64,000 nucleotides of DNA. Origin: Desulfosporosinus sp. Sb-LF (GTDB lineage: Bacteria > Bacillota > Desulfitobacteriia > Desulfitobacteriales > Desulfitobacteriaceae). Below the pieces are notes generated by a model. That model did no database searches. It saw only the letters and a program-made list of their open reading frames with translations, and had not been told where the DNA came from. The stretch is from assembly GCF_004766055.1 (NCBI RefSeq), contig NZ_SPQR01000005.1, positions 186,001 through 250,000 on the forward strand. The letters run 5' to 3'. Positions 2,818 to 44,333 of the stretch are shown here, piece after piece (positions within the stretch are counted from its first letter, which is position 1; every line of letters starts with the position of its first letter). Both the position numbers and the translations under genes were made by a program.

Positions 2818-2822
2818 CCAAC
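2818..2822. repeat. Target-site duplication, left copy (CCAAC)
   Basis: CCAAC directly precedes the TGT that opens the left end of the element, and the same five bases follow the ACA that closes the right end at 16022. A 5-bp duplication is the hallmark of Tn7-type transposition. Confidence 0.93.
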
Positions 2823-2935
2823 TGTTGTTTTACAATAAAGTTTGTTGTAAATAGCGTACATTTCTGGACCCATTTTTAAAATAAAGTTTGTTTATTTACT
2901 TTAATAATTCTATCATTTTTTATAATAAAGTTTGT
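2823..2935 (+). repeat. Tn7-like left end with three spaced TnsB-type sites
   Basis: Three copies of a ~22-bp site with core ATAAAGTTTGT lie at 2823-2845, 2871-2891 and 2914-2935, separated by gaps of about 25 bp. Classical Tn7 has the same design, with three separated TnsB sites in the left end and four overlapping sites in the right. Confidence 0.88.
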
Positions 2936-3164
2936 AGTAACTGAGATAAGATGATCAGTCCTTGTTGTAATCAATTGAGACTTTTGAGTATTAAGCACTC
3001 AATGTGCGTTGATGTTACTTCATTACCACCCAGACCGTTTCCCTAGATAAGCTAAAGAGAAAACACATGAAGCCTTTTAACTGAAGATTTAAAATATAAA
3101 ATAGCTTGAATAACAAAAATTGTGCTATCTGTTTCGAGAGCATCATTTAAGACTTCAACTTGAT

Positions 3165-4892
3165 TTAAACTTGTAGCATTTTTTTTACGGTCTCGATAAT
3201 AAATTTCATTGAATTAAATGCTGCTAATTCTTGATTTTCGTCAGTTTTGTCATATCCCCAATCACATATTGCTTTTACCATAATACAATCAACTTGGTTA
3301 CCAATTGCTACAGTTATTAAACCAGCACTTTCCATATCTCCGCCTATAATCTCTGACTCTTGCTCCTTTAGTGTATTTATAAAATCTTTTGAGTTAACAA
3401 GTGTTTCACCTGAAGCAATAACACCTATATGTACACCTGAGCTTGTCCAGTCAACCGCTGTCATGTCAGATATTTGCCTTAAATACGTTGAAACTTGTGT
3501 TTTATCACCTCTAGGAATAATTTTAGTTTCATTTACTTTTTTTATTTCATAATTCCATATTTGAGATGCGATTAGTACATCTCCTATCTTTTGTTTATCG
3601 GGATTCGCCCCGAAAGCAATACCGCCCATAATTATGTAATCTGGTTTGAATTTATCCATTGCTTTCGAAAGAGTCATTATTGAAGCCCCTGGCCCAGTTA
3701 GCCCCATTTGAGATTTGATAATATAAATATTCATGCTTAAAGTTATGATAGAATAATAACCAAAATCATCTGTTCTTTCATTAACTGTAAATTCATCTCT
3801 AAACATTTTCAAAGCATACCTAAGTTCAGTAATTGTTGTAACGACTACTAGTAAAGTTTTCTTTCCATTAACATCCATTGGTGATACCTCCATAAAAATC
3901 GGTTCTAATCTTCTGGCCTTATTTAAAATATTATCATAATAAAAGAGTAGATCAGTAATATTTAATGCAGGCTTAGTCGAATTTGTCGAGACATACTCAA
4001 TCAAGCCTAATCCATTATTATATCTGGCTCTCACTAAATTAGATTGTTCATTAAGTAATCCAATTCCGTTTGCAATCTTTTTCAAAATATAATACAGTTC
4101 TGGGAACATAGGATCGAGCTTAATTTCAATATATTTTTCTATAGGAAAACAACTTAGATCCAAGATCTTTTTATAAATTTTGTAACTCGTATCCCATTTG
4201 TTATTAGCTAAAAAATCATAGGCTTGTAATTGCGGTATATCAGTAATAATAGTTCCATTACCAGCATTTAGATACCTTTGTGTATATTTCTCGGAAATAA
4301 ACATTCTTAGTGAAAGCTCAATTTGCCTTTTAGAATGATAATCACTAATTTTCTCATTTAATAATTTATCAAATAAATGGATCGTTATTGCAGACTTTTG
4401 ATCACCTAATATCAAAAGTGGTACCTGCCCTTTAATGATATCAAATGCAGATGTACTAATCTTTTCTCTTAAAAAATCAAACTTTTCTTCCAAGAAATTT
4501 TTCCGTAGCAAATCAGTTGTTGAACCATTTAAAGTAATAACATTATTTCCCCAAGACGATATAGAATCATGGAAATACATTGGGTATCTATTTTGATCAT
4601 TTGCATATAATATCTGTCTACTTAATACAAAATCTTCGAGAGAACGATGATTTGTAAAAAACTGAACTATATCACATATATCTAATTGCCTTAAATATGT
4701 TGTCGTCTTTGGTAATTCTATATTACTCTCCCACAGGTGAGAATAGGAGGCATACGGAGGCCTTAGAGACATAAACATTGATTTCGCAACAATATCAAGC
4801 GCCAAATCATCAAACAACGTTAATTTAATTGACTCTCTTAGTTCTCTATCCAAAAAATGATAATAAATAGACTCAGAATTTCTTTTATTCAT
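3165..4892 (-). CDS. Large protein with C-terminal nucleoside phosphorylase/nucleosidase domain (cargo gene 2)
   Basis: About 575 residues. The last ~230 match the PNP/MTA-SAH nucleosidase superfamily: a first strand (KTLLVVVTT), the turn MGGIAFGANPDKQKIGDVLIA, and the nucleoside-binding GGDMESAGL near residue 517, followed by AICDWGYDKTD. The first ~340 residues are unfamiliar, mostly helical-looking, and may be a sensing domain. Family members hydrolyse or phosphorolyse purine nucleosides; related domains fused to sensors (for example DtcC of the Detocs system) cleave ATP during phage infection. ATG 4892 is preferred because it overlaps the upstream stop (ATGAATAA), implying translational coupling; a TTG four codons earlier is possible. 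No signal peptide is seen. A defence role is inference. Confidence 0.75.
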   Translation of the reverse strand: MNKRNSESIYYHFLDRELRESIKLTLFDDLALDIVAKSMFMSLRPPYASYSHLWESNIELPKTTTYLRQLDICDIVQFFTNHRSLEDFVLSRQILYANDQNRYPMYFHDSISSWGNNVITLNGSTTDLLRKNFLEEKFDFLREKISTSAFDIIKGQVPLLILGDQKSAITIHLFDKLLNEKISDYHSKRQIELSLRMFISEKYTQRYLNAGNGTIITDIPQLQAYDFLANNKWDTSYKIYKKILDLSCFPIEKYIEIKLDPMFPELYYILKKIANGIGLLNEQSNLVRARYNNGLGLIEYVSTNSTKPALNITDLLFYYDNILNKARRLEPIFMEVSPMDVNGKKTLLVVVTTITELRYALKMFRDEFTVNERTDDFGYYSIITLSMNIYIIKSQMGLTGPGASIMTLSKAMDKFKPDYIIMGGIAFGANPDKQKIGDVLIASQIWNYEIKKVNETKIIPRGDKTQVSTYLRQISDMTAVDWTSSGVHIGVIASGETLVNSKDFINTLKEQESEIIGGDMESAGLITVAIGNQVDCIMVKAICDWGYDKTDENQELAAFNSMKFIIETVKKMLQV

Positions 4893-6618
4893 TAGTATCG
4901 CCAAATAGCTTCAGTTGAGGGTCTATCGGATTTTCATTACTCTTAATAAATGAGATTAGATCTATCTTCTTAACTTGCTTTGCATGAACTTCAGGTTCAA
5001 AAACCACATCATCTTCTCGTATTTCAAATATTTCTTCAATCTTTGAGCCAATGGTGAAATATTTTATCTTTTTTCCATGCTTTTTAGCTAAAGCAATTTC
5101 AAATAATACTCCATCTGCAATTGGTCCAAAAACCCATAGTTCCTCACAGGTCTGGATCAATTGATTATTACCACGTCTTATAATATCCCTTGGTACCCTA
5201 TCACTCAGAAAATAATCAAATACTCTGAATGGGTTTATTGGTAAAAGCTCTTTTTTTAATACATATTCACAAATTATATCCCTGCAATAAAAATATACTT
5301 TTGATTGTGCCGTAAAAATCAATTTCATTGTATCTATCTTACTTTTTTTGATATTTAGAAACTTAATGCTGTTCTCAACTTGTTCTAGATCATCATTAAG
5401 TTCTTGAGCACAATAAATACCACTCACGAGTGCAGCTACAAGACCACGAAATTGTCCAGAACAGTCGCCAGGTACCCAGACTTTTTCATTAACCATTTTC
5501 AATTTCTGATAATCAAAAAGAGGATATTTTCCGATATACTCAATTTCCGGTCCGTAAACACTTGTATTATTTAATACTGCATCTTCGTTTAAATTAACAA
5601 GCATACCAATATATTCTTTTATAATAGAATCGCAATTTTTGCCAATAAACTTAAAATTATTATCCATATATTCGGATAAAGAAATCTTCTTCTTCGATAT
5701 ATTTTTTAATAGTTCATTTATTTCTTTTCCATAGGGGCTATTTTCTGTTTTGATTCGTATCAAAACACCTATATTTGAATGATTTGTTTTTTCGTCTAAA
5801 CTATATCCATTATATGAAACAAAATCGTCAAATTTAGATTCAAGAACAGACCCATCTTTACAGCAACAAAAAGTACGAATTTCAACACTATCATTAATCT
5901 TTTTTATAAATTTATAGTCAATTGATTTATCATTATACACATTTAATAAATCAGATAATGTTTCAATCCTAACTCCAGCTTCAACAATATAGTTATATTC
6001 CCTACTAATAAAGCCGACTTTTTCAAGTAGTATCGACCCATATTTCCCTGCAGAAAAAACAACATATTTAGCTTTATAACAACTCTGATCTTTTGTTTCA
6101 ATTATGTAGAAACCTTCTTCTTTACTAATAGAAATTACTTCAGAATTAAATTTAATGTAAGCATTTAGCCGAGAATATAAATAATTATTTAGCTCAACTC
6201 TTTGCTTGCTTGTTAAGTAAAAAGAATCATATTCCTTTCTTTCCCCAAATTCATAGAAATCCTTATTTAACCAAGATTCGTCCCATTGAAGAATATCTAC
6301 GTCTATCTCTTTCAAAATACTTTGAAATCGAGTATATGCTTCTTTGATCAATAGATTATTTGTCATTGTCCATAACTTTGTTGCAGCAGGAGGAAAAGAA
6401 AGCTTCCCATCAGAAAATAAGCCGCTGCCACCAAAACCTGAAGGCACGTCTGAAGCTATCTGGTATGATCGTTCATTAAGATGTTTACCCTTTTCTAAAA
6501 TAAGGAATTCTCGTTTTGACTTAATCAATTCATGAGCACTCATTAAACCAGCTGGCCCACCACCAATGATAATAACATCATATATATTTGAAGTAGTATT
6601 AATACTCTCGCCTCCCAA
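4885..6618 (-). CDS. FAD-dependent oxidoreductase fused to a nucleoside 2-deoxyribosyltransferase-like domain (cargo gene 1)
   Basis: Residues ~12-420 form a COG2509-like flavoprotein: Rossmann GGGPAGL at 19-25, FGGSGLFSDGKL at 62-73, and a C-terminal FAD contact, WVPGDCSGQFRGL, near 395. Residues ~425-535 are a separate domain with LLPINPFRVFDYFL and ELWVFGPIADGVLFEIALA (493 on), closely resembling DUF4406/DUF7768 proteins of the nucleoside 2-deoxyribosyltransferase fold. The fusion is unusual. The start is uncertain: TTG 6618 has no ribosome site, while GGGAGG at 6611-6616 lies 7 bases before an in-frame ATT at 6603, and no ATG precedes the Rossmann motif. The gene overlaps the phosphorylase gene by 8 bases, so the two products are probably made together. 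The substrate is unknown. Confidence 0.75.
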   Translation of the reverse strand: MGGESINTTSNIYDVIIIGGGPAGLMSAHELIKSKREFLILEKGKHLNERSYQIASDVPSGFGGSGLFSDGKLSFPPAATKLWTMTNNLLIKEAYTRFQSILKEIDVDILQWDESWLNKDFYEFGERKEYDSFYLTSKQRVELNNYLYSRLNAYIKFNSEVISISKEEGFYIIETKDQSCYKAKYVVFSAGKYGSILLEKVGFISREYNYIVEAGVRIETLSDLLNVYNDKSIDYKFIKKINDSVEIRTFCCCKDGSVLESKFDDFVSYNGYSLDEKTNHSNIGVLIRIKTENSPYGKEINELLKNISKKKISLSEYMDNNFKFIGKNCDSIIKEYIGMLVNLNEDAVLNNTSVYGPEIEYIGKYPLFDYQKLKMVNEKVWVPGDCSGQFRGLVAALVSGIYCAQELNDDLEQVENSIKFLNIKKSKIDTMKLIFTAQSKVYFYCRDIICEYVLKKELLPINPFRVFDYFLSDRVPRDIIRRGNNQLIQTCEELWVFGPIADGVLFEIALAKKHGKKIKYFTIGSKIEEIFEIREDDVVFEPEVHAKQVKKIDLISFIKSNENPIDPQLKLFGDTNE

Positions 6619-6661
6619 TAAAGCAATTGGAAATAAGTCTTACAAAGTGGAAGTTACCTTT

Positions 6662-6760
6662 TCAATTCATCACTAATTCTGGTGGAATTATACCTTCATA
6701 TTCTGGTGACGATGTTACCAAATCAACTCCCCTTACTTCAATTAAATCTAAAAGGAAGAT
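6662..6760 (-). pseudogene. C-terminal fragment of an unidentified cargo gene
   Basis: A ~32-codon frame with no start, ending ...EYEGIIPPELVMN and a stop at 6662-6664, lies just upstream of the FAD gene on the same strand. Its composition looks protein-like, but two TGA codons in a row precede it. It is best read as the tail of an older cargo gene removed when the present module arrived. Family not recognised. Confidence 0.35.
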
Positions 6761-6943
6761 TCATCATGTCTATGTCATGTTTGCTGAAAGGAGCATGGAT
6801 ATTTAAAGTGTTAACTCAAAAGTAGTTAGATAGGCCCCAATATTTAAATAAAATAGTTTACTCGATCTCAATTTCTTGCTCTTGATTTTCGATTTCTGCT
6901 TCGATAAGGGTTCTAATTGGTTCATAAATCAGTATATCTTGAT

Positions 6944-7099
6944 TTACTGCTTCTTCTCAAGCGAATTTGCAAGAATATCATGCCCATTTTTTCTTTCGCT
7001 CTTAATTATAAAAGGTGCAATTTTCTTTAAAGAATCAATATCTTCCAAGAAAATTGATCTAAACAATCTTTTGAGGAGATCAGCATTCATGTCATTCAT
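6944..7099 (-). pseudogene. Truncated N-terminus of an AAA-type ATPase-like gene
   Basis: A 51-residue frame with MNADLLKRLFRSI and IIKSERKNGHDILANSLEK. This resembles the small helical N-terminal domain that opens several AAA ATPases paired with subtilase-type partners in genome islands; the assignment is from memory of the pattern and is tentative. The frame stops before any Walker motif. A second frame (...YEPIRTLIEAEIENQEQ) follows to about 6860. A TATAAT-like box near 7185 and small hairpins lie upstream. It is most simply a decayed defence-type cargo gene. Confidence 0.4.
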
Positions 7100-7429
7100 C
7101 TCATTTCTAGCGTGTCAGTAATCATTAATTATATAGGAACACCACTAAGCGCAGAAGAGCGAGTTGCCTCTTCTTTACATCTATTATATATATAAAGGAA
7201 TATTTCAACAAATTCTCTAAATATTCCTGCCAAAAAACAAATATTTGAAAATAATAACAAAATCATTAATATTTAACCCCAACGAATTTTGTTCAATAGC
7301 TCTTTTAACTCGATTCATCCTGTATATATTTTCCATACTTATTAAACATTTAATTACATACTAGTCCGTGGAGTTGAGTTGGTGAAAGCAGCAGATAGGG
7401 CATGTCCAAATTTTAAAACTTTAATGTAG
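7100..7429. other. Non-coding stretch inside the transposon
   Basis: AT-rich sequence between the tnsE stop and the ATPase fragment. It holds a 9-bp inverted repeat (7197-7205 with 7219-7227), a small hairpin near 7151-7171, and a minus-strand 39-codon frame near 7220-7340 without a ribosome site. No further gene is recognisable. It marks the cargo/tns junction. Confidence 0.4.
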
Positions 7430-9169
7430 CTATATTTCAAGGAAATCTTCCTCTTCTATAAAATTTAAGTTCTCCCAAATAACTGCTGCCCAATCAATTA
7501 TACTCCACTTACTTAAATGCTTAACCTTAACAATTCTTAACACTGGATGATTAAGTATTTGACTCTTTCGCCAACTCCCGTAGTTGTTGATAAGGCCATG
7601 CAACAGTCCTTGTACTTCACTGAAGAGTTCGACCTCAGATAGCTTTCTTTTATCGCGAAGTTCAATTATTAGCGTTGAAAGTTGCACTTTTTCTGGTCGC
7701 TCTACCTCTAGAATGTACTTGGGTTTGTTCCTATGCTCAATTGTTACCAAAGCATATTTTCTTGGCCCGCCATCTTCATTTCGAGAAAACTGCCTTCCTG
7801 ATGGCAGCACATCTATTTTGGGTGGAGAAACCGAGATTACTGGGCTAAACCTGGCAATCACCTCTAACATGCCACGAAATTGCTCAAGACCATTGTCATT
7901 AAAACCTATAACTACATTTGGTCCCCGGAAATCCAAGGGACGCACTTCGCTGTTACCAGTATAAAAGACTTCTTCGCCTGAGAACATTACTTCTGGAATC
8001 TTTCCTGACTCTTTCTCTAAGTGGGCTAGTCGTTCCTTTTCACGAGCTTCCATTCCTGCCTTATCTTCGATTTCTCGTCTTTCCCGTTTACTAAACTGCC
8101 TATGATTTTCATGGTTATTCTTTTCTCTATAAGCATTAACCTCACGGTTTTGCCTAACTAGCTCGGGAAGTTCGGTAAATGATAAGACGTTATTAGAAAC
8201 CATACGTGTCACTGTCTTCGAATTACTTGTCGGATTATCAATTACAATCGATTTATCTTTGTTAATGCTTGAGCGTTTCTTCCTTTTAACAGCTGACCTA
8301 TGACCAATAATTTCAACGTTCTTTCTATCAGTAAAGGACTTATGCGCATACTCAATCTTTTTGTAGGGTAATTCTAAACCCTGTACTGAAACTATTTCTA
8401 AGACAATAATTGCTTGACCCTGTTGAATAGCCCTTACTTGCCATATGCAAGAACGATCCATCGGAGGAACTGCCGTAATTTTTTTGGAACCAATCAAATC
8501 CTCATCTGTTAAAGTAAAAAGGGCCAAAGGGAGGTTAATGTCACCGCGTGGGTAGACTCCATTATAAACTGAATTCCACACTTTCTTTGCTAAAGGATCA
8601 GTAATGAGCCATGCCACATGATTTACAGAAGAATCCATGATAATCTTCCTTGGCACATGTGGATCAAAGTTTATCTTTAATAACCCTTCAATTGATTTCA
8701 CATATGTAGCAACAAAGTCAATCCCGTTTGGTTCTAGTAGAGCTCTAGCCAAAGTTGCATTTGGAGTTAAAAAACTCCTGATAATTTCTACACAAGGAAT
8801 AATCACGTGCAATTCCTTGCATTGACAGACCCATACGTATTCTTCACTTGCCTCAGAATTCTTAAGCTCGATCAAACCCGACGGTAAATCTTGAACCCTG
8901 AGTAATTGGCCCTCTGATGGATTTGAAAGTGATAGACTAACTAATGTCCCCGATCTATGGAACTCACTCGGTAGACCCTTAATATAGAATTGTCCTATCC
9001 GGAAATATGGAAGTAAGCCCCATGAAATGTTAAGCAGTTTTATTGTTCCATTCTCACCTTCGAGAACTAACGGAACTTTCCATTCCTGATTCTGCTCTTT
9101 GAATGGGGATTTAATCCAAAGCAGTTGAACTGACTCACCCGGACTAAACGGCCAACCTTTAATGAACAT
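7430..9169 (-). CDS. tnsE: TnsE-like target-selection protein
   Basis: 579 residues, close to the ~540 of classical TnsE, and placed last in the tnsABCDE order. The N-terminal half (GWPFSPGESVQLLWI, ISWGLLPYFRIGQFYIKGLP) and the basic C-terminal half (ALVTIEHRNKPKYILEVERP) fit the family. A charged low-complexity linker (~290-395) contains the nuclear-type basic run KRKKRSS. Known TnsE binds 3'-recessed DNA and the sliding clamp and sends insertions into replicating conjugative plasmids. Identification rests mainly on position and overall pattern. It starts at ATG 9169, 46 bp after tnsD, with no strong ribosome site, so it may be expressed at a low level. Confidence 0.8.
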   Translation of the reverse strand: MFIKGWPFSPGESVQLLWIKSPFKEQNQEWKVPLVLEGENGTIKLLNISWGLLPYFRIGQFYIKGLPSEFHRSGTLVSLSLSNPSEGQLLRVQDLPSGLIELKNSEASEEYVWVCQCKELHVIIPCVEIIRSFLTPNATLARALLEPNGIDFVATYVKSIEGLLKINFDPHVPRKIIMDSSVNHVAWLITDPLAKKVWNSVYNGVYPRGDINLPLALFTLTDEDLIGSKKITAVPPMDRSCIWQVRAIQQGQAIIVLEIVSVQGLELPYKKIEYAHKSFTDRKNVEIIGHRSAVKRKKRSSINKDKSIVIDNPTSNSKTVTRMVSNNVLSFTELPELVRQNREVNAYREKNNHENHRQFSKRERREIEDKAGMEAREKERLAHLEKESGKIPEVMFSGEEVFYTGNSEVRPLDFRGPNVVIGFNDNGLEQFRGMLEVIARFSPVISVSPPKIDVLPSGRQFSRNEDGGPRKYALVTIEHRNKPKYILEVERPEKVQLSTLIIELRDKRKLSEVELFSEVQGLLHGLINNYGSWRKSQILNHPVLRIVKVKHLSKWSIIDWAAVIWENLNFIEEEDFLEI

Positions 9170-9215
9170 AACTCATGCTGCCCCCAACTCCTCATATATT
9201 TGCTTCAAGAATAGC

Positions 9216-11177
9216 CTAATTCAAATAATTACTGTCTCCGAAATCCTTTGTGTTTTGTAGAATACTATTACTTTCAATTAAAAGTTGAATCCGTTGAATA
9301 TCATCTTGAATAAAGCTCTCAACATTACTCAGGTATTCTGGTCTTATGCCTGCTTCCCGAATAACTTCCCATTTCTTCACAGAACCTTTACGCTGGAATA
9401 TTTCCTTTGTTACGCCAACGATACGCCGTCGCTGAAATTCGCTCACCGATTCTGAGACTTTCTCCAAAAAATCCGCTGTCCTTGGCAATTTGTCAATATG
9501 GCGCTGAATCACAGCCCGTTGACCAATTGATTTTGCTAAACGAGAAGAGGTAATTCTAACTGGCCGGGATAAGCTTAACAATTCATGATTGGCACCTTTG
9601 AGCTGGAAAAGTATTTCGATATCCCTAGTCTTCCAATCAACTCTTACCTTTGTGTCTTTTGCCAGTTTCTTCGTGAGTGGTGGGGGAAGATGTTCTTCTA
9701 ACCAATCGGGATTATTTCTATAAAACCAAGCATATTGTTTTTGTAAAGCAAAACGCATTTCAGTTCTGCAACATTCCGGGTTTTCTTTTAAAAAAACCGT
9801 AATGTCTTTAGCATAGCGTTTAAAAAAATCAGCCTTACTCTTGGATGGTCCTGGACTAACTGGTTGTTGTACCCTTATTTTACATCCAAGTTGTTCGGCA
9901 AGCCCTAATTTGTGAGCATATTTGACTATAGTGTTCGGGTCACAATTCATTATTCGTCCTATTTCCCTGAACACGACATTACCTTTTTTCAATAAGCTAT
10001 GTAGTTTTGCCTCCCATACTGGGCCAAAGTTTTTAATCCGCCCAATTCTATATTTATCCTCCGGCGTAAGATCTGGACCTCTTCGGGAATAGACAAACCC
10101 ACAATGACAGGCAAATGTACCCACTGGTTTGCGTGTTTTATAATCTGCGGAAATCTTACAATCAACTACTACTGGTTGTCTAAAGTGTTCGGCAGCGGGA
10201 TTTAAGCAATACCATGGAGGTTCACCAAAGACTGGGACTGGTCTAAAGTCATTCCGAAAAAATTCTTCAGCACTTCCACTTAGGAACATCATTAGCAGAA
10301 TATGGCGGATTGGATGTACAACTCTTTTCGGTTTTCTGGTAATAACCTTAAGCCAATTATATTCATTCCCCTTACCCAACCCTGACTCCATAATGGACAA
10401 AATACTACCACCATAAAAGCCATATATTGCAAAAGCTAGATCTTGTTGTGAAATGTGCCCTTTACTGGTCAAAAAGCCTTTGGCGTTCATCAAATGTAAA
10501 TACATTTGATGAACTCTTACCTGGCTATTGTCAATCAGATGATGATTCAGTAAATGATGTACCGATTCAGCAACCTGGTGAAGCTTTTGTTGAATATTCT
10601 CCTCCGACAAAAACTCAGGTTTTAAATCTGCTATTCGGTGATCAAACCTAATAAACTCAATTCGGCTGACTATATGGTACGATTCACGGTAATGCTTTAA
10701 CAAGCACCCATGTTTATAACAAACACTGACACCTTGAACATTATGGCTTCTTCGGAAGTACATTTCACCGTTGTCCTTGAAATCATTATCGGCGCAAATT
10801 GGGCAATATAACAGGCCTTCAGTTGAACAAACACTACCTGCCATCATACCAATCATAGCTTGAACATTACTTTTAGCGTCGGAGATCATTAAATTTAAAA
10901 TGCGTACCGCACGTTCCTTCGGTAGGAATGGACTATATAAGGGAAACAGAGTGTGGTTAAAAACTAACTGTTCTGGAGTACAGTCGGCTTCCCTATAAAA
11001 TTGGGCACAGAGATAGCCGATGTTAGTAGGGAAATGGATAGAAGGGATCTTGCTACGTGAACCGAAAACCTCAACTAAAGTATCTTTATAATCCGAATTC
11101 CCGGTTAAAAAATGATACCTTGCTATTAAACTGTATAATAATTCATCTTCGTAGGGAGTGGGGAAAAAGGGTCTCAT
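9216..11177 (-). CDS. tnsD: TnsD/TniQ-family target selector for attTn7
   Basis: 653 residues. The N-terminus (FFPTPYEDELLYSLIARYHFLTG) is the TniQ signature, and a CCCH zinc finger is formed by C125, C128, C153 and H156 (CPIC...CYKHG). The C-terminal part contains further helix-turn-helix-like segments (VFREIGRIMNCDPNTIVKYA) suited to reading DNA. TnsD of Tn7 binds the last codons of glmS and recruits TnsC, so insertion occurs just downstream. The observed position 21 bp past the glmS stop shows that this protein, or a close relative, acts that way here. It starts 3 bp after the tnsC stop. Confidence 0.93.
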   Translation of the reverse strand: MRPFFPTPYEDELLYSLIARYHFLTGNSDYKDTLVEVFGSRSKIPSIHFPTNIGYLCAQFYREADCTPEQLVFNHTLFPLYSPFLPKERAVRILNLMISDAKSNVQAMIGMMAGSVCSTEGLLYCPICADNDFKDNGEMYFRRSHNVQGVSVCYKHGCLLKHYRESYHIVSRIEFIRFDHRIADLKPEFLSEENIQQKLHQVAESVHHLLNHHLIDNSQVRVHQMYLHLMNAKGFLTSKGHISQQDLAFAIYGFYGGSILSIMESGLGKGNEYNWLKVITRKPKRVVHPIRHILLMMFLSGSAEEFFRNDFRPVPVFGEPPWYCLNPAAEHFRQPVVVDCKISADYKTRKPVGTFACHCGFVYSRRGPDLTPEDKYRIGRIKNFGPVWEAKLHSLLKKGNVVFREIGRIMNCDPNTIVKYAHKLGLAEQLGCKIRVQQPVSPGPSKSKADFFKRYAKDITVFLKENPECCRTEMRFALQKQYAWFYRNNPDWLEEHLPPPLTKKLAKDTKVRVDWKTRDIEILFQLKGANHELLSLSRPVRITSSRLAKSIGQRAVIQRHIDKLPRTADFLEKVSESVSEFQRRRIVGVTKEIFQRKGSVKKWEVIREAGIRPEYLSNVESFIQDDIQRIQLLIESNSILQNTKDFGDSNYLN

Positions 11178-11180
11178 AGT

Positions 11181-12848
11181 TTAAGCAAATTCCTCCACGT
11201 TCTTTATATACCCCGACTCATTCAGCAACTCGTAAACGTGCTTCTTTTTACCGATAGCTTGATGGAATATATGAATTAAGCCCTTACTCTCGACTGCTTT
11301 TTTGATCTTTTTGCCACCTGTACTTGCTTTAGCCGCCTTTGCATCATTTTCTTCCATAGCGGTTTTAATAGCAAGTTGCTTTATTTTTAAATAATCTTCA
11401 TTTACTCCAAGTTCATTAACTATTCGTGTAGCGATCCCTTCAAAGTCACGTTGATTCAGATTACTTAAAAAGCCTAATCCTGTAAGGTCGAACATCAAAG
11501 TCTGCACTTTGCTTTTATGCTCAATTGTATCAAGTTTTTCAAGGCTTTGAGTAATCGACGCGATCTTACCATTCAAATCCAATTTTTCCCGTTTAGAATT
11601 TATTATCTTTTCCATGTCTATAGCAACATCTTCGAGCTGTGCTAATCTCGCCCGATCATTATCTCGAAGTGCCCTTATTATGTCACTGACCATATAAAGA
11701 TCTTCGTTCGCAGTATTAAGAATTATCTTTTCGGTTATTCTTTCATCATCTGTAAATAAGGCTCTCTCTTGAGCCAGCAAAAATAGACTAACTGCAATAG
11801 CAGTAATACCCTGAGACTGTTCATACATCAGTTCAGCTAATTCGTTAGATAAAGGAGTATGGATTTTGAGCCATTGAAATTTCCACATGGTCTTTAAAAA
11901 TAAATCCCATTCCTCATCAGGCGCCATTCTATCCCAATAAATGCTTTTTTGACTTGCAGCTCGTCTACTTTGCCTAAGTTCTTTAGTTAGTACCTTTAAA
12001 GCTTTAAAAGTTCCGATAAGGATAATTGGAACACCAATTTTATTCTCTAAAGTGACTAAGAAATTCAGAAGTTCGTCTGGATCAGTCTTTTTACTGATAA
12101 GATGCTGCATTTCATCAATTGCGATTACACCGACCGAATGAATGGTAGCAAGACGCTCCATATCTATCATCATTTTCCCTCTGGAGTTTCTAGCATCACC
12201 GAATTTATCATAATAATTTGTCTCTAGAACATCATCAACAGCCTTAAAAAAAATCTGGCAGAAAGTTTTTAGCGAACCATCAAACGGGCAATCAAGTTTG
12301 AGCCAGACAATCTGAGTTCGGTTCAAAGCCATACCCTCATATTTCTTAGTATGTCGAATTACTTGAGGATACATTTTAAGTAGTTTTTCAATAGCTGTTG
12401 TTTTTCCGATACCACTAATACCAATGATACTTAAAGTAAGAGCACTCGACTTAATATCTTTAAATCCCTGAAAGGTAACAGATTCTATTAGTTTTTCATC
12501 CTGCTCGGATATTGAATGTATACGTTGGTTAAAGTCCTTCTGTTTAATAGGATTTCTAGCAATATAACCTCTTCTTAACATACTAGAAATGTTTCTCGCT
12601 AAGTCAAAGTGAATATTCCAAGGCATAGTAAAATGTTTAAGCCTCTGAATAACATCAAATCTTATCTCCTTCTGAAGTTCGAGATCCGAAGACGAATGGA
12701 GAGGCCTTGAAAACATGTATTCGAACAACTCTTCCTCAGTATAAACGTCTGGCAACGCCTCAACGAGTGGATTATTGTTATATTCTTGGAGCGGGTGTTT
12801 ACTATATATTGCATCTACTTCGAAACAGTTTTGCAAATTGTACTTCAT
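11181..12848 (-). CDS. tnsC: TnsC AAA+ regulator of transposition
   Basis: 555 residues. Walker A is GISGIGKTT (143-151) and Walker B VIAIDEMQ (about 241-248), followed by a sensor segment near VPIILIGTFKA. TnsC forms ATP-dependent filaments on DNA, connects the target selector (TnsD or TnsE) to the TnsA/TnsB transposase, and gives target immunity. The ATG lies one base after the tnsB stop, with AGGAAGGA about 9 bases upstream, so the two are co-translated. The Lys-rich tail (KKIKKA) is typical. Confidence 0.93.
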   Translation of the reverse strand: MKYNLQNCFEVDAIYSKHPLQEYNNNPLVEALPDVYTEEELFEYMFSRPLHSSSDLELQKEIRFDVIQRLKHFTMPWNIHFDLARNISSMLRRGYIARNPIKQKDFNQRIHSISEQDEKLIESVTFQGFKDIKSSALTLSIIGISGIGKTTAIEKLLKMYPQVIRHTKKYEGMALNRTQIVWLKLDCPFDGSLKTFCQIFFKAVDDVLETNYYDKFGDARNSRGKMMIDMERLATIHSVGVIAIDEMQHLISKKTDPDELLNFLVTLENKIGVPIILIGTFKALKVLTKELRQSRRAASQKSIYWDRMAPDEEWDLFLKTMWKFQWLKIHTPLSNELAELMYEQSQGITAIAVSLFLLAQERALFTDDERITEKIILNTANEDLYMVSDIIRALRDNDRARLAQLEDVAIDMEKIINSKREKLDLNGKIASITQSLEKLDTIEHKSKVQTLMFDLTGLGFLSNLNQRDFEGIATRIVNELGVNEDYLKIKQLAIKTAMEENDAKAAKASTGGKKIKKAVESKGLIHIFHQAIGKKKHVYELLNESGYIKNVEEFA

Positions 12849-12849
12849 G

Positions 12850-15045
12850 TTATTCTATGTCCTTCCTAAACTTTTCTTCAATCCTCTTCTCCATCATCTC
12901 CAACATTGATCTTTTAGCTGAAGTCTCGGGATCGATTCCGCGCGAAGGTATGTGGTTACTTGATTCACTATTATTAACTAAGAAGGGAATTACTTCACCT
13001 GATTTAGGTTGTGCCGCCCCAAGGTTGAACTGTTCTTCTTCTCTTCTTTGAGACTTTTCATCGGCCCTATTTGTAGAAATGTTCTTAGTCCTTTGAGCCT
13101 TGCTGGTCTTTGGTTTTGTCTTTTTTTGTTTATCAGTTTCTTTCTTTGCACTCTTCAAGATTGCTCTGGTTGCCATATCGTGATCAGCATTGTTTTGTGA
13201 TTCTTCATCTATGGCATCCTCTAAACGCTCTGCCAACAACTCGCTGTGAAATCGAGCTTCTTCCCAGTAAAGGTTGGCGTAATCCTCACTCTTCTCCAAT
13301 AAGTTAGCAACACTAAAGGATTTTCCGTCTTTGGTGGGTAAATATACTACACTAATATCCCTTGGGTCATATGCAATTACCTCACTACGCCTTTTTGGAT
13401 TAATAAACCAACCTTCCGCTAATGCCTTCTCGAAACTATAATAACGACCTTCAAACTTAATTCCTTGTCTTAAAATACTTGCTTTGGCTCTTGGTAATAA
13501 ATTCAATCTCACAATTTCACGAGGGAAACTGTGAAAACATCCCTTTTTATTTTCCATTCCCCAACGCCATATCACGATCGGCTTAGGTATTACTCCCGAA
13601 GCGTGTAATTCCGTGGACAACGGATACTTAGTCATGACGTGTTTGTTATGCCATATTACATCCCTTATCATTAACCCTGTGAATTCTTTAACAGTTAGTT
13701 CTGCTTTTAAACGATGGTCCTCTTCACAGCGTTGTCTATACTCTCGATCGATGGCACCGGGTAGCATATGTTTTATTCTGTCATTGACTGTTCGAAAATG
13801 CCTTTCCACGATTCCCTTTAAATCCCCGCGGTATGGGGGAGTAATATCCACCTCAACATTTAGATTATTTATTAAATTGTCAGCATTTAAGCCCTCCATT
13901 TCTCCACCATCAGCAATAATTCTTTCAGGCAGTCCTTGGCAGGGCCACTCTTCTTCCGAAATACGAATGTCGTACTTACTGCAAAACGCAACCTTATCAT
14001 CCACAATATTATCGATAAGCATCATGGCTCCGACCCATGAAGGTCCTTCTAAACCGACATATATCCCTGCAACCATTCTTGAATACGTATCGATAGCTAC
14101 ATATACAATTGGTCTTCCAATTATTTTGGTTCTATCAAGGCTGCTCACCAGATAGACGTCCGCAATTGTTGCGTCTACTTGATATTCAGATCCCGGCCCC
14201 GATACCTTTGATGTTGAATCTCCAAGCAATTCACGGAGTTTAAGGTTAAATTCCCTTTCACTATGGCGGTCAATGTAGTCCTGTTTTTCATCCTTTTCCT
14301 TCAAATACCAGTATCGGAATTGTGTGTATGTAGGTCTCCGATCCTTGCCCCATCTCTTTACCTTTTTCTCCCCGTTTTCTGTATAAGGAGTAGAGAAGTA
14401 TGTATCGAGGAGATAGTTATAAGCATCTGTTAAAGTTGGTTTTTGTTTAGTTCGATACTTTGTGTCAATGACTAGCCTGAATAAATTAAGTTCAGCTTTG
14501 CCAATGTTAATTCCCACTTTATCAGGATCACGGTATTTTGGCGGTCTACCTCTCTTTATTTCCGTACTCTTGCGGTTTTTACCTGGGTGCCCACAATTGT
14601 TGTAATCAAGTAACAGCGCATTTTTAGTCATACCTCGTTGCCAAAAACGCTTAATTATACGATCAACTTTATATTTAGGTAGTAGAAACTTGTCACACGC
14701 TTGTCGGACTAATTTAGATCTTGTACTTCTCGTTAACATCGCTATCGGCTCTTTAGCCCAAAGACATTGAACTAAATCCCAGTCTTTATCCCTAGCTTCT
14801 CTTAATGAAGAAGGAATATCTTCATCTCTCCAAGTTCTTGCGTAAGGGTCAGGGATAATAACTAGTTTTCCAGTATCCAAACCCATTTCAAGTTCATCTA
14901 CTGTTGTCATAAAAGGGAGAGACCCTTCGTCAGATAGATCCACAAGAAATGCATATTCCTCCTCTTTCCAGATTACTCTCTGGCGCTCGATCTTTTCATT
15001 GTCTTGACTCTTTACTCTTTGTATGACTGTATTAACTTGTATCAC
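12850..15045 (-). CDS. tnsB: TnsB DDE transposase
   Basis: 731 residues, near the 702 of Tn7 TnsB. N-terminal helix-turn-helix domains (~100-150) recognise the end repeats. The rve/DDE core has D291 (EYQVDATIAD), D379 (RIIADGGEME) and E414 (GIVERHFRTVND). A C-terminal beta-barrel and a charged Lys-rich tail (KKETDKQKKTKPK) follow; the tail of TnsB contacts TnsC. It joins the 3' ends of the element to target DNA. The GTG start overlaps the tnsA stop (GTGA), which suggests strict coupling of the two transposase subunits. Confidence 0.95.
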   Translation of the reverse strand: MIQVNTVIQRVKSQDNEKIERQRVIWKEEEYAFLVDLSDEGSLPFMTTVDELEMGLDTGKLVIIPDPYARTWRDEDIPSSLREARDKDWDLVQCLWAKEPIAMLTRSTRSKLVRQACDKFLLPKYKVDRIIKRFWQRGMTKNALLLDYNNCGHPGKNRKSTEIKRGRPPKYRDPDKVGINIGKAELNLFRLVIDTKYRTKQKPTLTDAYNYLLDTYFSTPYTENGEKKVKRWGKDRRPTYTQFRYWYLKEKDEKQDYIDRHSEREFNLKLRELLGDSTSKVSGPGSEYQVDATIADVYLVSSLDRTKIIGRPIVYVAIDTYSRMVAGIYVGLEGPSWVGAMMLIDNIVDDKVAFCSKYDIRISEEEWPCQGLPERIIADGGEMEGLNADNLINNLNVEVDITPPYRGDLKGIVERHFRTVNDRIKHMLPGAIDREYRQRCEEDHRLKAELTVKEFTGLMIRDVIWHNKHVMTKYPLSTELHASGVIPKPIVIWRWGMENKKGCFHSFPREIVRLNLLPRAKASILRQGIKFEGRYYSFEKALAEGWFINPKRRSEVIAYDPRDISVVYLPTKDGKSFSVANLLEKSEDYANLYWEEARFHSELLAERLEDAIDEESQNNADHDMATRAILKSAKKETDKQKKTKPKTSKAQRTKNISTNRADEKSQRREEEQFNLGAAQPKSGEVIPFLVNNSESSNHIPSRGIDPETSAKRSMLEMMEKRIEEKFRKDIE

Positions 15046-15899
15046 CCTGCAAACACCTCAATATCAGCCGATTTACCAACACTAATCTTTTGAGGAGTAT
15101 CAAATTTTAGTTTTACTGTATCGATATCCATGTTAATTTGTTTGGTATAGAGCAAGTGTTTAAATATTGAGAGACTTGTCCCAATTTCCAATGTCATTCT
15201 ACTGTCGAAGTCATGGGCCATATCGCGGATCACAACCCTATTGCCAGAAACGGTTTGCTTAAAGGCGCTTATAAGAGCGTTTCTATTTTTGACCGAAATA
15301 CTTCTTAACCCATCTAAGTTGGATAGGTCATGGCAACTCCGTAAATCATTTAAGTTTCTTGCTAATACCTGGTTTATCTCTAGTTCCGTAACAATGCCCC
15401 AATCAAGGCCTTTGGACTTCCAATAACGTCTTTCAATCTCAAATTTTTGAATAATTCGTTCGTCCATAAGCTCGCCCTTGGGTTTAACGGTTCTGATCAC
15501 ATCGACAGTACCATTTTCATCTTTTATCGTAATTCTAAAATCACTCGACATGACAATTGGATAATTACTTACTGGATCGGTTGGAGGTTCAATACCGCAT
15601 TCTTTTGCGATGGCAAGAGTCTCAGTCAATTCAAAGAGGGGAAACTGCTCACGAATATCAACCACTGAATCTCGATACTCCAATATAAGAAAATAATCTC
15701 GTTCGAGATTTGACAGTAAATGGTGTTCTCTTTTGATTTTAGTTCCGGCAATTCTGGATCTTCCGCCTTTTGACGGAACATCATGGATAGTCAACCACGG
15801 TTTATAGTTTTCACCATATCCAGAACCCCTGCCTTCTTTAATCCATTTAGCCTGCTTTTCAGGTGTTTCAACCCTATTTCTTTTTGCCAAAAAAAACAC
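15042..15899 (-). CDS. tnsA: TnsA endonuclease subunit
   Basis: 285 residues from GTG 15899. TnsA resembles a restriction endonuclease and cuts the 5' ends, making Tn7 transposition cut-and-paste. Likely catalytic residues are E66 (NLERDYF), D120 (SSDFRI) and K139 (TVKP), matching the spacing of E63/D114/K132 in Tn7. The GTG directly abuts AAAGGGG; a TTG at 15890 lies 8 bases after that site and is the better start, giving 282 residues. The ribosome site is buried in a hairpin with a U-run (15889-15930), so translation and transcription of the whole tns operon may be restrained. Confidence 0.93.
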   Translation of the reverse strand: MFFLAKRNRVETPEKQAKWIKEGRGSGYGENYKPWLTIHDVPSKGGRSRIAGTKIKREHHLLSNLERDYFLILEYRDSVVDIREQFPLFELTETLAIAKECGIEPPTDPVSNYPIVMSSDFRITIKDENGTVDVIRTVKPKGELMDERIIQKFEIERRYWKSKGLDWGIVTELEINQVLARNLNDLRSCHDLSNLDGLRSISVKNRNALISAFKQTVSGNRVVIRDMAHDFDSRMTLEIGTSLSIFKHLLYTKQINMDIDTVKLKFDTPQKISVGKSADIEVFAG

Positions 15900-15930
15900 C
15901 CCTTTCGATGTTATTCTACATCAAAAGGGG
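15889..15930 (-). terminator. Terminator-like hairpin guarding tnsA
   Basis: On the minus strand a 13-bp stem (15918-15930 with 15899-15911, one G-U pair) closes a 6-base loop and runs into TGTTTTTTTT. This is a textbook intrinsic terminator, about 120 bp after the glmS stop and at the tnsA start. It also hides the tnsA ribosome site in its 3' arm. It should stop glmS read-through from entering the tns operon and limit transposase synthesis. Confidence 0.75.
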
Positions 15931-15937
15931 GCTATTC

Positions 15938-16022
15938 AAACATTCTTTATTATAAAAATACAAACTATTTTATTAAAGTACAAACTTTATTATGAAACAA
16001 CAAACTTTATTATGAAACAACA
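15938..16022 (-). repeat. Tn7-like right end with four packed TnsB-type sites
   Basis: Read from 16022 inward, two identical 23-bp sites (16000-16022 and 15980-16002) overlap by three bases and begin TGTTGTTTCATAATAAAG. Two weaker copies follow (15960-15980 and 15938-15960). Four contiguous sites in the right end against three spaced sites in the left is the asymmetry that orients Tn7. Confidence 0.9.
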
Positions 16023-16027
16023 CCAAC
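16023..16027. repeat. Target-site duplication, right copy (CCAAC)
   Basis: Directly follows the terminal ACA of the right end and matches 2818-2822. The distance to the glmS stop codon (16049-16051) is 21 bp, close to the ~25 bp of Tn7 in E. coli. Confidence 0.93.
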
Positions 16028-16048: not shown

Positions 16049-17872
16049 CTACTCCACTGTCACGCTCTTTGCCAAATTCCTCGGCTTATCAACGTCACAC
16101 CCCCTGGCCACGGAGACATAGTAGGACAGAAGTTGCAGCGGTATGACTGTGAGGATCGGAGAAAGCTCATCCATGGTCTCTGGAATATAGATCACATGAT
16201 CGACCGATTTCGTCAAGCTGGTGTTTCCTTTATAGGTCAGTCCAATCACTTTAGCATCCCGGGCTTTTACCTCTTTGATATTAGAAATGGTCTTTTCGTA
16301 TACATCCCGTTGGGTTGCCAGCGCAATGACGGGTGTATTTTCTGTGATCAAGGCCAATGTGCCGTGCTTTAACTCGCCAGCTGCATAGGCTTCGGCATGG
16401 ATATAGGAAATTTCCTTCAACTTCAGGGATCCTTCCATCGCCACAGCCCAATCTAACGAACGGCCAATAAAGAAGGTATCTTCCACGTTGACAAACGACT
16501 TTGCCAACTCCTTGATGAGGCTCTCTTGATCCAGGATTTCTTGGGCTTGAGCGGGAATTCTCTGCAAAGCGGTAATAATTTCCCCAATCTTTTCGGAAGG
16601 TAAAGTTCCTTTGACCTGAGCAAGATAGAGTCCAAGTAAAACCATTCCTTCCAGCTGAGTCGTGTATGCTTTCGTAGACGCTACTGCGATCTCGGGACCA
16701 GCCCAGGTGAAGATGACATCATGGGCTTCTCGGGAAACCGTGCTTCCCACGACATTAGTTACTGCAACCACGCGCGCGCCGCGGTTTTTGGCTTCACGTA
16801 GGGCCGCCAAGGTATCAGCTGTTTCTCCAGACTGGCTCACTACCACGACCAAAGTATGCTCATCCACAAGGGGTGAGCGATAGCGGAACTCCGAGGCAAT
16901 GTCCACTTCAACTGGGAGGCGTGCCCAACGTTCAATCAAAGTCTTGCCGACAAGCCCAGCATGCCAAGCAGTACCACATGCAACAATATAAACCTTGTTA
17001 ATTTGCGCCAGTTCTTCAAGGGTTAGATCCACTTCTTGAAGAACGACTTTCTGTTCTTCCAAGCGGCTCAACATCGTATCCTTCAAGGCACGAGGTTGTT
17101 CATGAATTTCCTTAAGCATGAAATGTTCATACCCGCCCTTTTCTGCGGCCACGGCATCCCACTTGACGTTATAGACTTCTTTCGTATGAGGATTTCCTTC
17201 GAAGTCTGAGACTTTTACCCCATCTTCAGTGATAACTACCATTTCTCCATCATCTAAGATATAGACTTTGCGTGTCTGGTTCAAAATCGCTGTAATGTCG
17301 CTCGCCACGAAGAACTCCCCATCTCCAAGGCCTACAACCATAGGGCTATCTTTACGAGCGGCCACCAATTTATCAGGTTCCTGGCGTCTAAGCGCGACCA
17401 TCGCATAGGACCCGCGAACCGTTTTTAAGACTTTCCGAACTGCCCCCTCAAAGTCTCCCTCATAAAAGTCTTCAAGTAAGTGGGCTAGAACTTCCGTGTC
17501 AGTTTCTGATACAAAATGATGTCCCTTTTCGATGAGCTTGTCTTTTAATTCCAGGTAATTTTCAATGATTCCATTATGCACCACCACAAAATCCTGTTTG
17601 CAATCGCAATGGGGGTGAGCATTAAGGTGTGAAGGGCGGCCATGGGTTGCCCAGCGGGTGTGTCCGATTCCAATGCACGACTGGGAATAATTCTCCCCGA
17701 GTTCTTTTTCTAAAGCGACTAATTTACCTAAACTTTTGGAAATAACAAGTTCATTTTGATCTACGACCGCTACCCCTGCCGAATCATAACCCCGATACTC
17801 TAGCTTTTTTAAGCCCTCCACCAAAATAGGAATAGCCACCTGTTTTCCAATATATCCTACAATTCCACACAT
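16049..17872 (-). CDS. glmS: Glutamine-fructose-6-phosphate aminotransferase (isomerizing)
   Basis: 607 residues. It makes glucosamine-6-phosphate from fructose-6-phosphate and glutamine, the first step to UDP-GlcNAc. The N-terminal class II amidotransferase domain begins MCGIVGYIG, with Cys2 as nucleophile; two SIS sugar-isomerase domains follow, and the conserved end is DKPRNLAKSVTVE. That end region is the sequence TnsD reads, and the Tn7-like element lies just beyond it. GAGGAG precedes ATG 17872. The ribozyme at 18076-18216 and a hairpin terminator at 17972-18006 lie in the leader, so expression is probably shut down by glucosamine-6-phosphate. Confidence 0.98.
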   Translation of the reverse strand: MCGIVGYIGKQVAIPILVEGLKKLEYRGYDSAGVAVVDQNELVISKSLGKLVALEKELGENYSQSCIGIGHTRWATHGRPSHLNAHPHCDCKQDFVVVHNGIIENYLELKDKLIEKGHHFVSETDTEVLAHLLEDFYEGDFEGAVRKVLKTVRGSYAMVALRRQEPDKLVAARKDSPMVVGLGDGEFFVASDITAILNQTRKVYILDDGEMVVITEDGVKVSDFEGNPHTKEVYNVKWDAVAAEKGGYEHFMLKEIHEQPRALKDTMLSRLEEQKVVLQEVDLTLEELAQINKVYIVACGTAWHAGLVGKTLIERWARLPVEVDIASEFRYRSPLVDEHTLVVVVSQSGETADTLAALREAKNRGARVVAVTNVVGSTVSREAHDVIFTWAGPEIAVASTKAYTTQLEGMVLLGLYLAQVKGTLPSEKIGEIITALQRIPAQAQEILDQESLIKELAKSFVNVEDTFFIGRSLDWAVAMEGSLKLKEISYIHAEAYAAGELKHGTLALITENTPVIALATQRDVYEKTISNIKEVKARDAKVIGLTYKGNTSLTKSVDHVIYIPETMDELSPILTVIPLQLLSYYVSVARGCDVDKPRNLAKSVTVE

Positions 17873-20384: not shown

Positions 20385-21983
20385 CTACCCTACCTGGGCA
20401 TATTGCGCCATAAGATATTCTGCCATTCTTATACCATCGACTGCGGCACTCGTAATTCCCCCGGCATACCCCGCTCCTTCGCCCGCCGGATATAGCCCTG
20501 CCAAGCTTAACGATTCTCCTTGCCCATTACGAACAATGCGAATGGGAGAGCTTGTCCTTGTCTCAACCCCTGTCAAGGTCGCCTTATCTCCGGCAAATCC
20601 TTTGATTTTACCATTAAAAACCCGAAGTGCTCGGCCTAGCACATCCCCTACCTGAGTCGGGAGGACGGTATGCAACTCACAAGGCACAATACCAGGAGTA
20701 TACGTCGCTGATAGGTCAAAGTGATCCGACACGCGACTTTCCAAAAAGTCCACAACTCGTTGTGCCGGGGCCTTATAATCTCTTCCTCCTGCCAAAAACG
20801 CCTTATGTTCCCACTCCCTTTGAAAGGCTAGACCTGCGAGTGGATGCGCTGTCGGAAAATCGTCCGCACCGACGGTCACCACAATAGCACTGTTAGCGAC
20901 CTTCGTATCCCGATCATATCCGCTCATACCATTCGTGACTACCCCGCCCTCTTCCGAAGCGGCTGCCACGACCTTTCCTCCGGGACACATGCAAAAAGCA
21001 TAGGCCCCTCGACCTGTCCTCACATCCTGATACGTCAGCTGATAATCCGCCGGACCGACATGAGGATGTTCTTCGATTCCGTACTGAGAGTAATTGATAA
21101 GGGACTGTGGATGCTCTACTCGCAGACCTATCGCGAACCCTTTTTTCTCCAGCATTACCTTTGAATCATATAAAAACTCATAAACATCACGAGCACTGTG
21201 CCCAATAGCAAGGATGACCGCCTCGGCAGGAATTTCTTCCCCGTCAACAATAACCCTTTGCAAACGTCCTGAGGACGACATTAACCCAGTGACTTTAGAC
21301 CGGAAGCGAACCTCGCCACCTAGCGACTCGATCTCCCTCCGAATTCCTTTGACGACATCTTTCAGAATATCCGTCCCGATATGCGGTTTGGCTAAATATA
21401 GGATCTCTGAGGGCGCACCGTGCTTGACGAAGGTTTCCAAAACCTCTGAAATCTTGCGGTCTTGAATTCGAGTTGTGAGCTTACCATCCGAGAAAGTTCC
21501 CGCTCCACCTTCGCCGAATTGCACATTGCTCTCAGTGTCTAACTTCCCTGTATCCCAAAATTCCTGAACTTTGCGTGAGCGTTCCTCAACAGGGTCCCCA
21601 CGTTCCAGCACAAGCGGAGCATACCCTCTTCGGGCTAAGGCTAATGCAGCGAAATACCCCGCTGGTCCAGCTCCGATCACCACAGGGCGAGATTTAAGCG
21701 TTTTAGTGGGCTCAGGCCAGAGCACAGGAACCTCCATTGGAACTTCCTTCAGACCTGGAACCCGGTCTAAAATTCGGCTTACTTCTGTGTTTGGAATGTC
21801 AAGGGATAACTGAATCGTATAGACGAACGCAAGATAGGGTTTTTTTCGGGCATCTAACGACCGACGCAAAAAACGAAGACCGTTGATTGTCTCTTCAGGA
21901 ACTTTTAGTTTACGAGCCATGGTAGTCTTTAACAACGCATCTTCTTCGACAGGGATTCTCAAATTCGTCCATAGTAACTCCAC
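20385..21983 (-). CDS. NAD(P)/FAD-dependent oxidoreductase, COG2509 family
   Basis: 532 residues. A ~95-residue N-terminal domain (KARKKPYLAFVYTI-like segment) precedes a Rossmann fold with GAGPAGYFAALALARRG, the FGEGGAGTFSDGKLTTRI motif, and a C-terminal FAD contact GLYPAGEGAGYAGGI. Members are soluble flavoproteins of unknown substrate, common in Firmicutes. It lies 4 bp downstream of cdaR and 90 bp before glmM on the same strand. The GGAGTFSDGKL motif is shared with the transposon cargo flavoprotein at 4885-6618, but that protein lacks this N-terminal domain and has a different C-terminus. Confidence 0.88.
   Translation of the reverse strand: MELLWTNLRIPVEEDALLKTTMARKLKVPEETINGLRFLRRSLDARKKPYLAFVYTIQLSLDIPNTEVSRILDRVPGLKEVPMEVPVLWPEPTKTLKSRPVVIGAGPAGYFAALALARRGYAPLVLERGDPVEERSRKVQEFWDTGKLDTESNVQFGEGGAGTFSDGKLTTRIQDRKISEVLETFVKHGAPSEILYLAKPHIGTDILKDVVKGIRREIESLGGEVRFRSKVTGLMSSSGRLQRVIVDGEEIPAEAVILAIGHSARDVYEFLYDSKVMLEKKGFAIGLRVEHPQSLINYSQYGIEEHPHVGPADYQLTYQDVRTGRGAYAFCMCPGGKVVAAASEEGGVVTNGMSGYDRDTKVANSAIVVTVGADDFPTAHPLAGLAFQREWEHKAFLAGGRDYKAPAQRVVDFLESRVSDHFDLSATYTPGIVPCELHTVLPTQVGDVLGRALRVFNGKIKGFAGDKATLTGVETRTSSPIRIVRNGQGESLSLAGLYPAGEGAGYAGGITSAAVDGIRMAEYLMAQYAQVG

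Positions 21984-41816: not shown

Positions 41817-44333
<2,517 letters not shown>

Follow-up and report, generated by a model that had tools for sequence, protein, structure and literature searches.

A two-gene flavoprotein–nucleosidase module carried by a Tn7-like element of Desulfosporosinus is a candidate mobile anti-phage system

Our analysis concerned a stretch of 64,000 nucleotides from Desulfosporosinus sp. Sb-LF (contig NZ_SPQR01000005.1, positions 186,001 to 250,000), which we refer to as the window. It holds a complete Tn7-like element carrying two intact minus-strand genes as cargo, one encoding a flavoprotein with a nucleoside 2-deoxyribosyltransferase-like (NDT-like) domain at its C-terminal end, and the other encoding a protein with a C-terminal nucleosidase domain of the PNP type, termed here the PNP protein (Table 1). 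The initial annotation had presented these as the only intact cargo genes, with frames overlapping by eight bases, and had proposed that they constitute a new defence system. Indeed, the overlap is of exactly eight bases (ATGAATAA), and only stop-riddled remnants lie between the flavoprotein gene and tnsE. The remnant at 6930-7110 on the minus strand has about 50 open codons and resembles the end of a longer protein.

Pfam identified the C-terminal domain of the PNP protein as PNP_UDP_1 (5.9e-14, residues 377-562 of a 579-residue reading that starts from the TTG at 4904), as had been proposed, and the domain scored 52.5 bits against a superfamily cut-off of 25.1 bits. A fold search with the predicted model returned the fold of MTA/SAH nucleosidases (MTANs; Z 29, 2.5 Å over 219 residues), and alignment with MTANs placed the catalytic Glu/Glu/Asp residues at E356, E521 and D544 (in 'CDW'), all invariant in 20/20 relatives. 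The aspartate of 'GGDMES', which had been suggested as the catalytic site, does not have this role; position 519 is a glutamate in 17 of the 20 relatives. K540, C543 and Q554 are found also in Detocs nucleosidases and not in MTANs. The N-terminal domain, of about 280 residues, is conserved as well. Neither Pfam nor the PDB gave a significant sequence match for it, and fold searches with the model of the whole protein returned mainly MTANs and other nucleosidases. The succession of helices and strands suggests that residues 28–80 might form a winged helix. The domain may serve as a sensor, one of the two roles (sensing or partner binding) put forward in the initial annotation.

The flavoprotein gene starts at a TTG or a non-standard codon and ends at TAA. 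Both parts assigned to its product, an FAD-dependent oxidoreductase and an NDT-like tail, were recovered by Pfam: an FAD/NAD Rossmann N-terminus (PF13738, 6.1e-13) and DUF7768 (PF24963) at residues 449-521, with 32.8 bits, above the cut-off of 26. The AlphaFold model of this protein is good (pLDDT 85; the alignments for structure prediction were built without plasmid-record sequences), and its FAD part matched PDB 3nlc (VP0956) with Z 29.9 over 367 residues, the next match having Z 19. The score against FAD-depend_C (PF21688) was 19.9 bits, for a cut-off of 27. Conserved among the flavoproteins are the GxGxxG region, a GG-GxF/YSDGK motif and a TFCxC motif. The NDT-like domain has 26 invariant positions, including E493, D502 and E507 (numbering of the window protein), and the invariant glutamate presumably lies where the nucleophile region of a deoxyribosyltransferase would be. 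A profile of this domain found no match in the PDB.

The element that carries the two genes has the TnsA, TnsB, TnsC and TnsD core recognised by Pfam, ends with repeats, a perfect 5-bp target duplication on its flanks and an insertion site downstream of glmS. The terminal sequences match on both sides (TGTTGTTT...AATAAAGTTTGT), its limits can be placed to the exact base, and the end repeats are presumed, by analogy with Tn7, to be TnsB sites. We take the gene at the attachment site to be glmS from reading its sequence, not from a family match. The G+C content of the two-gene module is 30.8%, compared with 38.9% for the tns genes and 43% for the chromosome to the right, so that by base composition the cargo seems alien even within the transposon that carries it. 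Just outside the element, at 2712-2758, there is a 22-nt inverted repeat with a 3-nt loop, likely the terminator of the neighbouring transporter gene.

To learn whether the pair is conserved together, as the initial annotation had predicted, we searched for relatives of its proteins. Single-protein searches of genome contigs and viral contigs returned no relatives, and the first end-to-end match to the PNP protein was one plasmid protein of Rhizobium etli, where a flavoprotein gene lies directly downstream of the PNP gene. An alignment of the N-termini of the window and R. etli proteins retrieved 16 further loci from genome contigs of Clostridia, Bacteroidota, Chloroflexota and Actinomycetota. 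This two-row alignment found no relatives in the viral contigs, and the annotated phage records held no homologue; one additional locus is a phage contig. A separate search by the NDT-like domain added three Micromonosporaceae loci, with FAD and PNP parts present in 3/3. The PNP protein was thus found at 22 loci in five phyla (window and R. etli included), and 17 of the 22 have kept the flavoprotein, the NDT-like domain and the PNP protein together, in no consistent metabolic operon. The viral locus L065 looks like a chance or partial match and was set aside. L079 was excluded from the locus count, as its NDT-like domain is attached to an FAD fold that has degenerated and its neighbours look like housekeeping genes; this gene (L079:5004-5987) lies in a chromosomal setting between a Mrp-type ATPase and a kinase (both judged by eye) and is perhaps a domesticated relative. 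L067–L072 are generic DUF7768 proteins.

The arrangement of the three parts varies. A fusion of FAD and NDT-like parts followed by PNP was found in the window, L027, L029 and L032–L035, and three separate genes in the order FAD, NDT, PNP at L036, L038, L039, L040, L041, L060, L081 and L082 (the FAD gene assigned to L039 comes from the edge of a separate contig, L063, presumably contiguous with it). L080 has an FAD gene and an NDT–PNP fusion, while the order NDT, FAD, PNP occurs in L031 together with L061, two contigs that we infer to be joined across a break. At the R. etli locus the FAD part is present without the NDT-like part, and at L028, L030, L037 and L042 neither accompanies the PNP gene. 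As the NDT-like middle domain is fused to either neighbour, these arrangements provide strong evidence that the three parts act together. In R. etli (pA, L021:9827-14088), the flavoprotein gene is frameshifted as sequenced, and genes for an HD protein, a DNA methylase and a P-loop protein follow in the same direction.

The module is sporadic yet spread over five phyla. Three surveys, covering 398 genomes from the phylum of the window, 294 from a single actinobacterial order and 395 from Bacteroidota, each returned one carrier only, the one already known. Counting mobile-element hallmarks where a search or a record supported them, we found that L031/L061 belongs to a second Tn7-like element (TnsD and TnsC there share only 24% and 37% identity with the window proteins), that a phage terminase lies upstream of the trio in L060, that serine recombinases are present at L027 and L037 and tyrosine recombinases at L041 and, more weakly, at L034, and that the R. 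etli carrier is a plasmid. The two Tn7-like carriers do not group together in the PNP tree described below, and therefore separate capture appears likelier than descent from one old cargo. PMC8649781 reports known immune systems in 26% of Tn7-like elements. Downstream of the phage-borne trio there is a PIN_8-domain gene (L060:10323-11243).

We built a tree of 43 PNP domains, comprising 20 family rows, 18 MTANs, four Detocs-type receiver–PNP proteins and one PNP–NACHT protein. The 18 MTANs were split from the family, Detocs-type and PNP–NACHT domains with support of 100/99, and the best-scoring outside domain to the family PNP was an NLR-type PNP from Pantoea. The kinship with defence effectors that had been suggested for this domain thus agrees with the tree, where the family groups with immune PNPs and not with MTANs, and by sequence the domain looks like an immune effector. 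A table in PMC10952713 lists (d)ATP degradation as the activity of immune PNPs from CBASS, Detocs, Argonaute, DRT8 and NLR-like systems. In the Agrobacterium plasmid locus L087 (5545-8184), ABC-three-component genes adjoin a Detocs-type operon.

At one locus, L062 (3290-7944, Lachnospiraceae 28-4), an NDT-like gene, a divergent FAD gene and a gene for a SIR2 protein form one apparent operon. The NDT-like gene shares 53% identity with its L061 counterpart. The FAD gene is followed, 57 bases on, by the gene for the SIR2 protein, which has 924 residues and also contains NUDIX-like and radical-SAM regions. Its SIR2 region matches LmuA (3.6e-45), ThsA and Dsr1, and in the PDB KomC and ThsA; the radical-SAM region has a weak match to viperins. 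The presence of SIR2 in the place of PNP suggests that the effectors are interchangeable. An interrupted copy of the PNP gene lies elsewhere in the same genome, on a scaffold stretch shared with an AriA-like ATPase and PDC-S02.

Several loci have defence-type genes nearby: PDC-M46A/B immediately upstream at L027 (4e-148, 2e-201), an AriA-like ATPase near the PNP gene at L030, a type IIG-like methylase at L035, and a DUF4062–NB-ARC protein after the PNP gene at L042. A recent report describes DUF4062 as a family of NADases in phage defence (PMC13174449). At L042 (8498-15269), two small nucleotide-binding proteins (NDT-like by eye) and a NUDIX gene precede the PNP gene. Other settings are different. 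At L037 (9995-14315), the PNP protein is followed by a GHMP kinase (beta-RFAP synthase-like), a protein consisting only of the N-terminal domain and a P-loop kinase. One flavoprotein relative lies beside hpt, NUDIX, HAD and transporter genes, and another beside a nucleotidyltransferase and a thymidylate-kinase-like gene. Elsewhere in the window, at 41817-44333, a gene encodes a long collagen-like protein of Gly-Ala-Thr repeats, and the repeat causes large overlapping open reading frames on both strands.

Table 1. Features of the Tn7-like element, its cargo genes and its insertion site (positions in the window).
Feature	Position	Strand	Description
PNP protein	3165..4892	-	575 aa, ATG start; N-terminal domain ~8-282, MTAN-type nucleosidase domain ~343-575
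Flavoprotein with NDT-like DUF7768 domain (fusion)	4885..6618	-	577 aa; FAD part ~10-417, NDT-like part ~432-545
Tn7-like element	2823..16022		Complete, 13,200 bp; like ends and target-site duplication on both sides, tns genes within
Target-site duplication, distal	2818..2822		CCAAC, 5 bp
Target-site duplication, glmS side	16023..16027		CCAAC, 5 bp
Three repeats (TTTTAnAATAAAGTTTGT), distal end	2828..2940		Presumed TnsB sites
Repeats (ACAAACTTTATTATGAAACA), glmS-proximal end	15940..16019		Presumed TnsB sites
TnsE-type protein	7430..9169	-	TnsE_C PF18623 8.3e-7
TnsD/TniQ target selector	9216..11177	-	PF15978 1.3e-100, PF06527 1.4e-19
TnsC ATPase	11181..12848	-	PF13401 1.6e-20, PF05621 3.1e-10
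TnsB transposase (Mu-transpos_C)	12850..15045	-	PF09299 3.1e-6, gene order, size
TnsA endonuclease	15042..15899	-	PF08722 1.2e-19, PF08721 2.4e-13
glmS (presumed), attachment-site gene	16049..17872	-	Insertion ~22 bp past the stop codon

We propose, with a probability of roughly 60%, that the two genes form a mobile abortive-type module against phages and other mobile genetic elements, in which an FAD–NDT unit is paired with a PNP nucleosidase effector. The defence role is proposed from genomic evidence, as are the effector role of the PNP protein and its control by the partner. The initial view of the pair as a defence module thus stands as to co-occurrence, mobility, grouping with immune PNPs and, at one locus, the SIR2 protein in the PNP position, and fails as to the catalytic aspartate. 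In such a module the PNP protein would be the effector, its C-terminal domain hydrolysing the N-glycosidic bond of an adenine nucleotide; the substrate would be ATP or dATP by analogy with Detocs, and NAD or a signal nucleotide is also possible. The N-terminal domain might keep the effector off or mediate docking to its partner. As that partner, the NDT-bearing flavoprotein may sense infection through bound FAD and nucleotide, or may alternatively make or remove a regulatory nucleotide, and its action would license the effector. A broader idea, tentative and in our judgement rather doubtful, is that the flavoprotein–NDT pair is a new immune sensor or signal-making core which reads redox or nucleotide state in infected cells and drives interchangeable effectors, PNP in most bacteria and SIR2-NUDIX-radical-SAM in one.

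Several observations weigh against a defence role. The PNP tree is unrooted and has long branches. The SIR2 swap was seen at one locus only, and the FAD protein there is no more than a distant relative, with about 24% identity over 266 residues. The defence-type neighbours have no matched control and are hence context and not enrichment. L029, L038 and L040 lie among apparent housekeeping genes. The GHMP and P-loop kinases of L037 and the HD, DNA methylase and P-loop genes of R. etli point away from defence, stand-alone flavoprotein relatives occur in metabolic-looking clusters (L022, L023), and the cargo of Tn7-like elements includes metabolic genes too (PMC8649781).

An alternative is a mobile module for nucleotide salvage or repair, in which the trio would process damaged or unusual nucleosides or by-products of S-adenosylmethionine and confer a metabolic advantage instead of immunity. 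Each of the three parts has kinship with nucleotide or redox enzymes, and the neighbours of the flavoprotein relatives, the genes downstream in R. etli, the two kinases of L037 and the metabolic cargo of Tn7-like elements fit this explanation. However, the module is rare and patchy, at least eight loci have mobile-element hallmarks, no metabolic partner is constant across loci, the PNP domain groups with immune effectors and not with MTANs, and SIR2 holds the PNP position in L062, and we regard salvage or repair as unlikely. Less probable still is an addiction module of the toxin-antitoxin kind that would stabilise mobile elements, with a toxic PNP protein neutralised by the FAD–NDT unit and phage defence at most a by-product: the overlap of the genes with the partner first, the fusions and the mobility would all suit it, but a flavoenzyme of more than 400 residues would be an unusual antitoxin, and the PNP genes without a partner at L037 and L042 argue that PNP alone is tolerated. 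A biosynthetic module, comparable to the pathways for hypermodified bases or nucleoside antibiotics and yielding a small molecule or a modified nucleoside, is hinted at by the extra enzymes near some members (kinases, NUDIX, HD, DNA methylase, radical SAM) and is very improbable, as these differ at every locus and no such enzymes accompany the core trio in the window, L027, L029, L032 and L060.

We know of no flavin enzyme that serves as a core partner of a nucleotide-depleting immune effector. If the anti-phage reading is true, the module adds a new regulator to the PNP effector family, and if the SIR2 variant is real, it adds a new interchangeable sensor core. The two genes make a compact unit within the natural boundaries of a transposon, have relatives in five phyla and encode recognisable catalytic residues, and they lend themselves directly to cloning and testing.

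Among known proteins, MTANs share the fold of the PNP domain (Z 29) and its catalytic residues, but the module's domain stays far below the NCBIfam cut-offs for them (53.7 vs 169 bits and 36.8 vs 73.8), lies apart in the tree and has an uncharacterised domain fused to its N-terminal side. VP0956-type flavoproteins (PDB 3nlc) have the closest fold to the flavoprotein by a wide margin, but the module's flavoprotein is fused or linked to an NDT-like domain. A chromosomal relative of this type at 20385-21983 of the window also has the GG-GxF/YSDGK-type motif; it is about 24% identical, and the module's protein lacks its N-terminal extension. With DUF7768 and other NDT-like proteins the tail shares a score above the PF24963 cut-off and a conserved ExWxFGxxxDGVxxE motif, yet it forms a distinct rare subfamily with TAxSK and NPF motifs of its own. 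DUF7768 was not mentioned in the open literature searched. Thoeris ThsA, Lamassu LmuA and Kongming KomC have a SIR2 NADase-type domain like the one in the PNP place at L062; unlike in these systems, the L062 domain is part of a fusion with NUDIX-like and radical-SAM regions and has NDT–FAD as its partner.

Among defence systems, no name for the module was found in PADLOC 2.0.0 or in the part of the open literature that was searched. PDC-M60C, a PADLOC model resembling DtcC, matches the PNP part only, and we therefore rejected it as a name for the system. CBASS Cap17 and PNP-NLR (NACHT) proteins likewise use a PNP domain as effector, but the module has no SLOG or STAND ATPase, and there is no CD-NTase gene in the element. 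Detocs DtcC has a PNP domain of the same type, with the catalytic residues and the additional K540, C543 and Q554 in common. Unlike Detocs, the module has a PNP protein without a receiver domain (Pfam finds only PNP_UDP_1) and with a different N-terminal domain, the protein is partnered by an NDT-bearing flavoprotein, and there is no histidine kinase or phosphorelay gene, as the element consists of the tns genes and the pair only. The module is thus neither Detocs nor CBASS, and at the level of the effector it may work like them.

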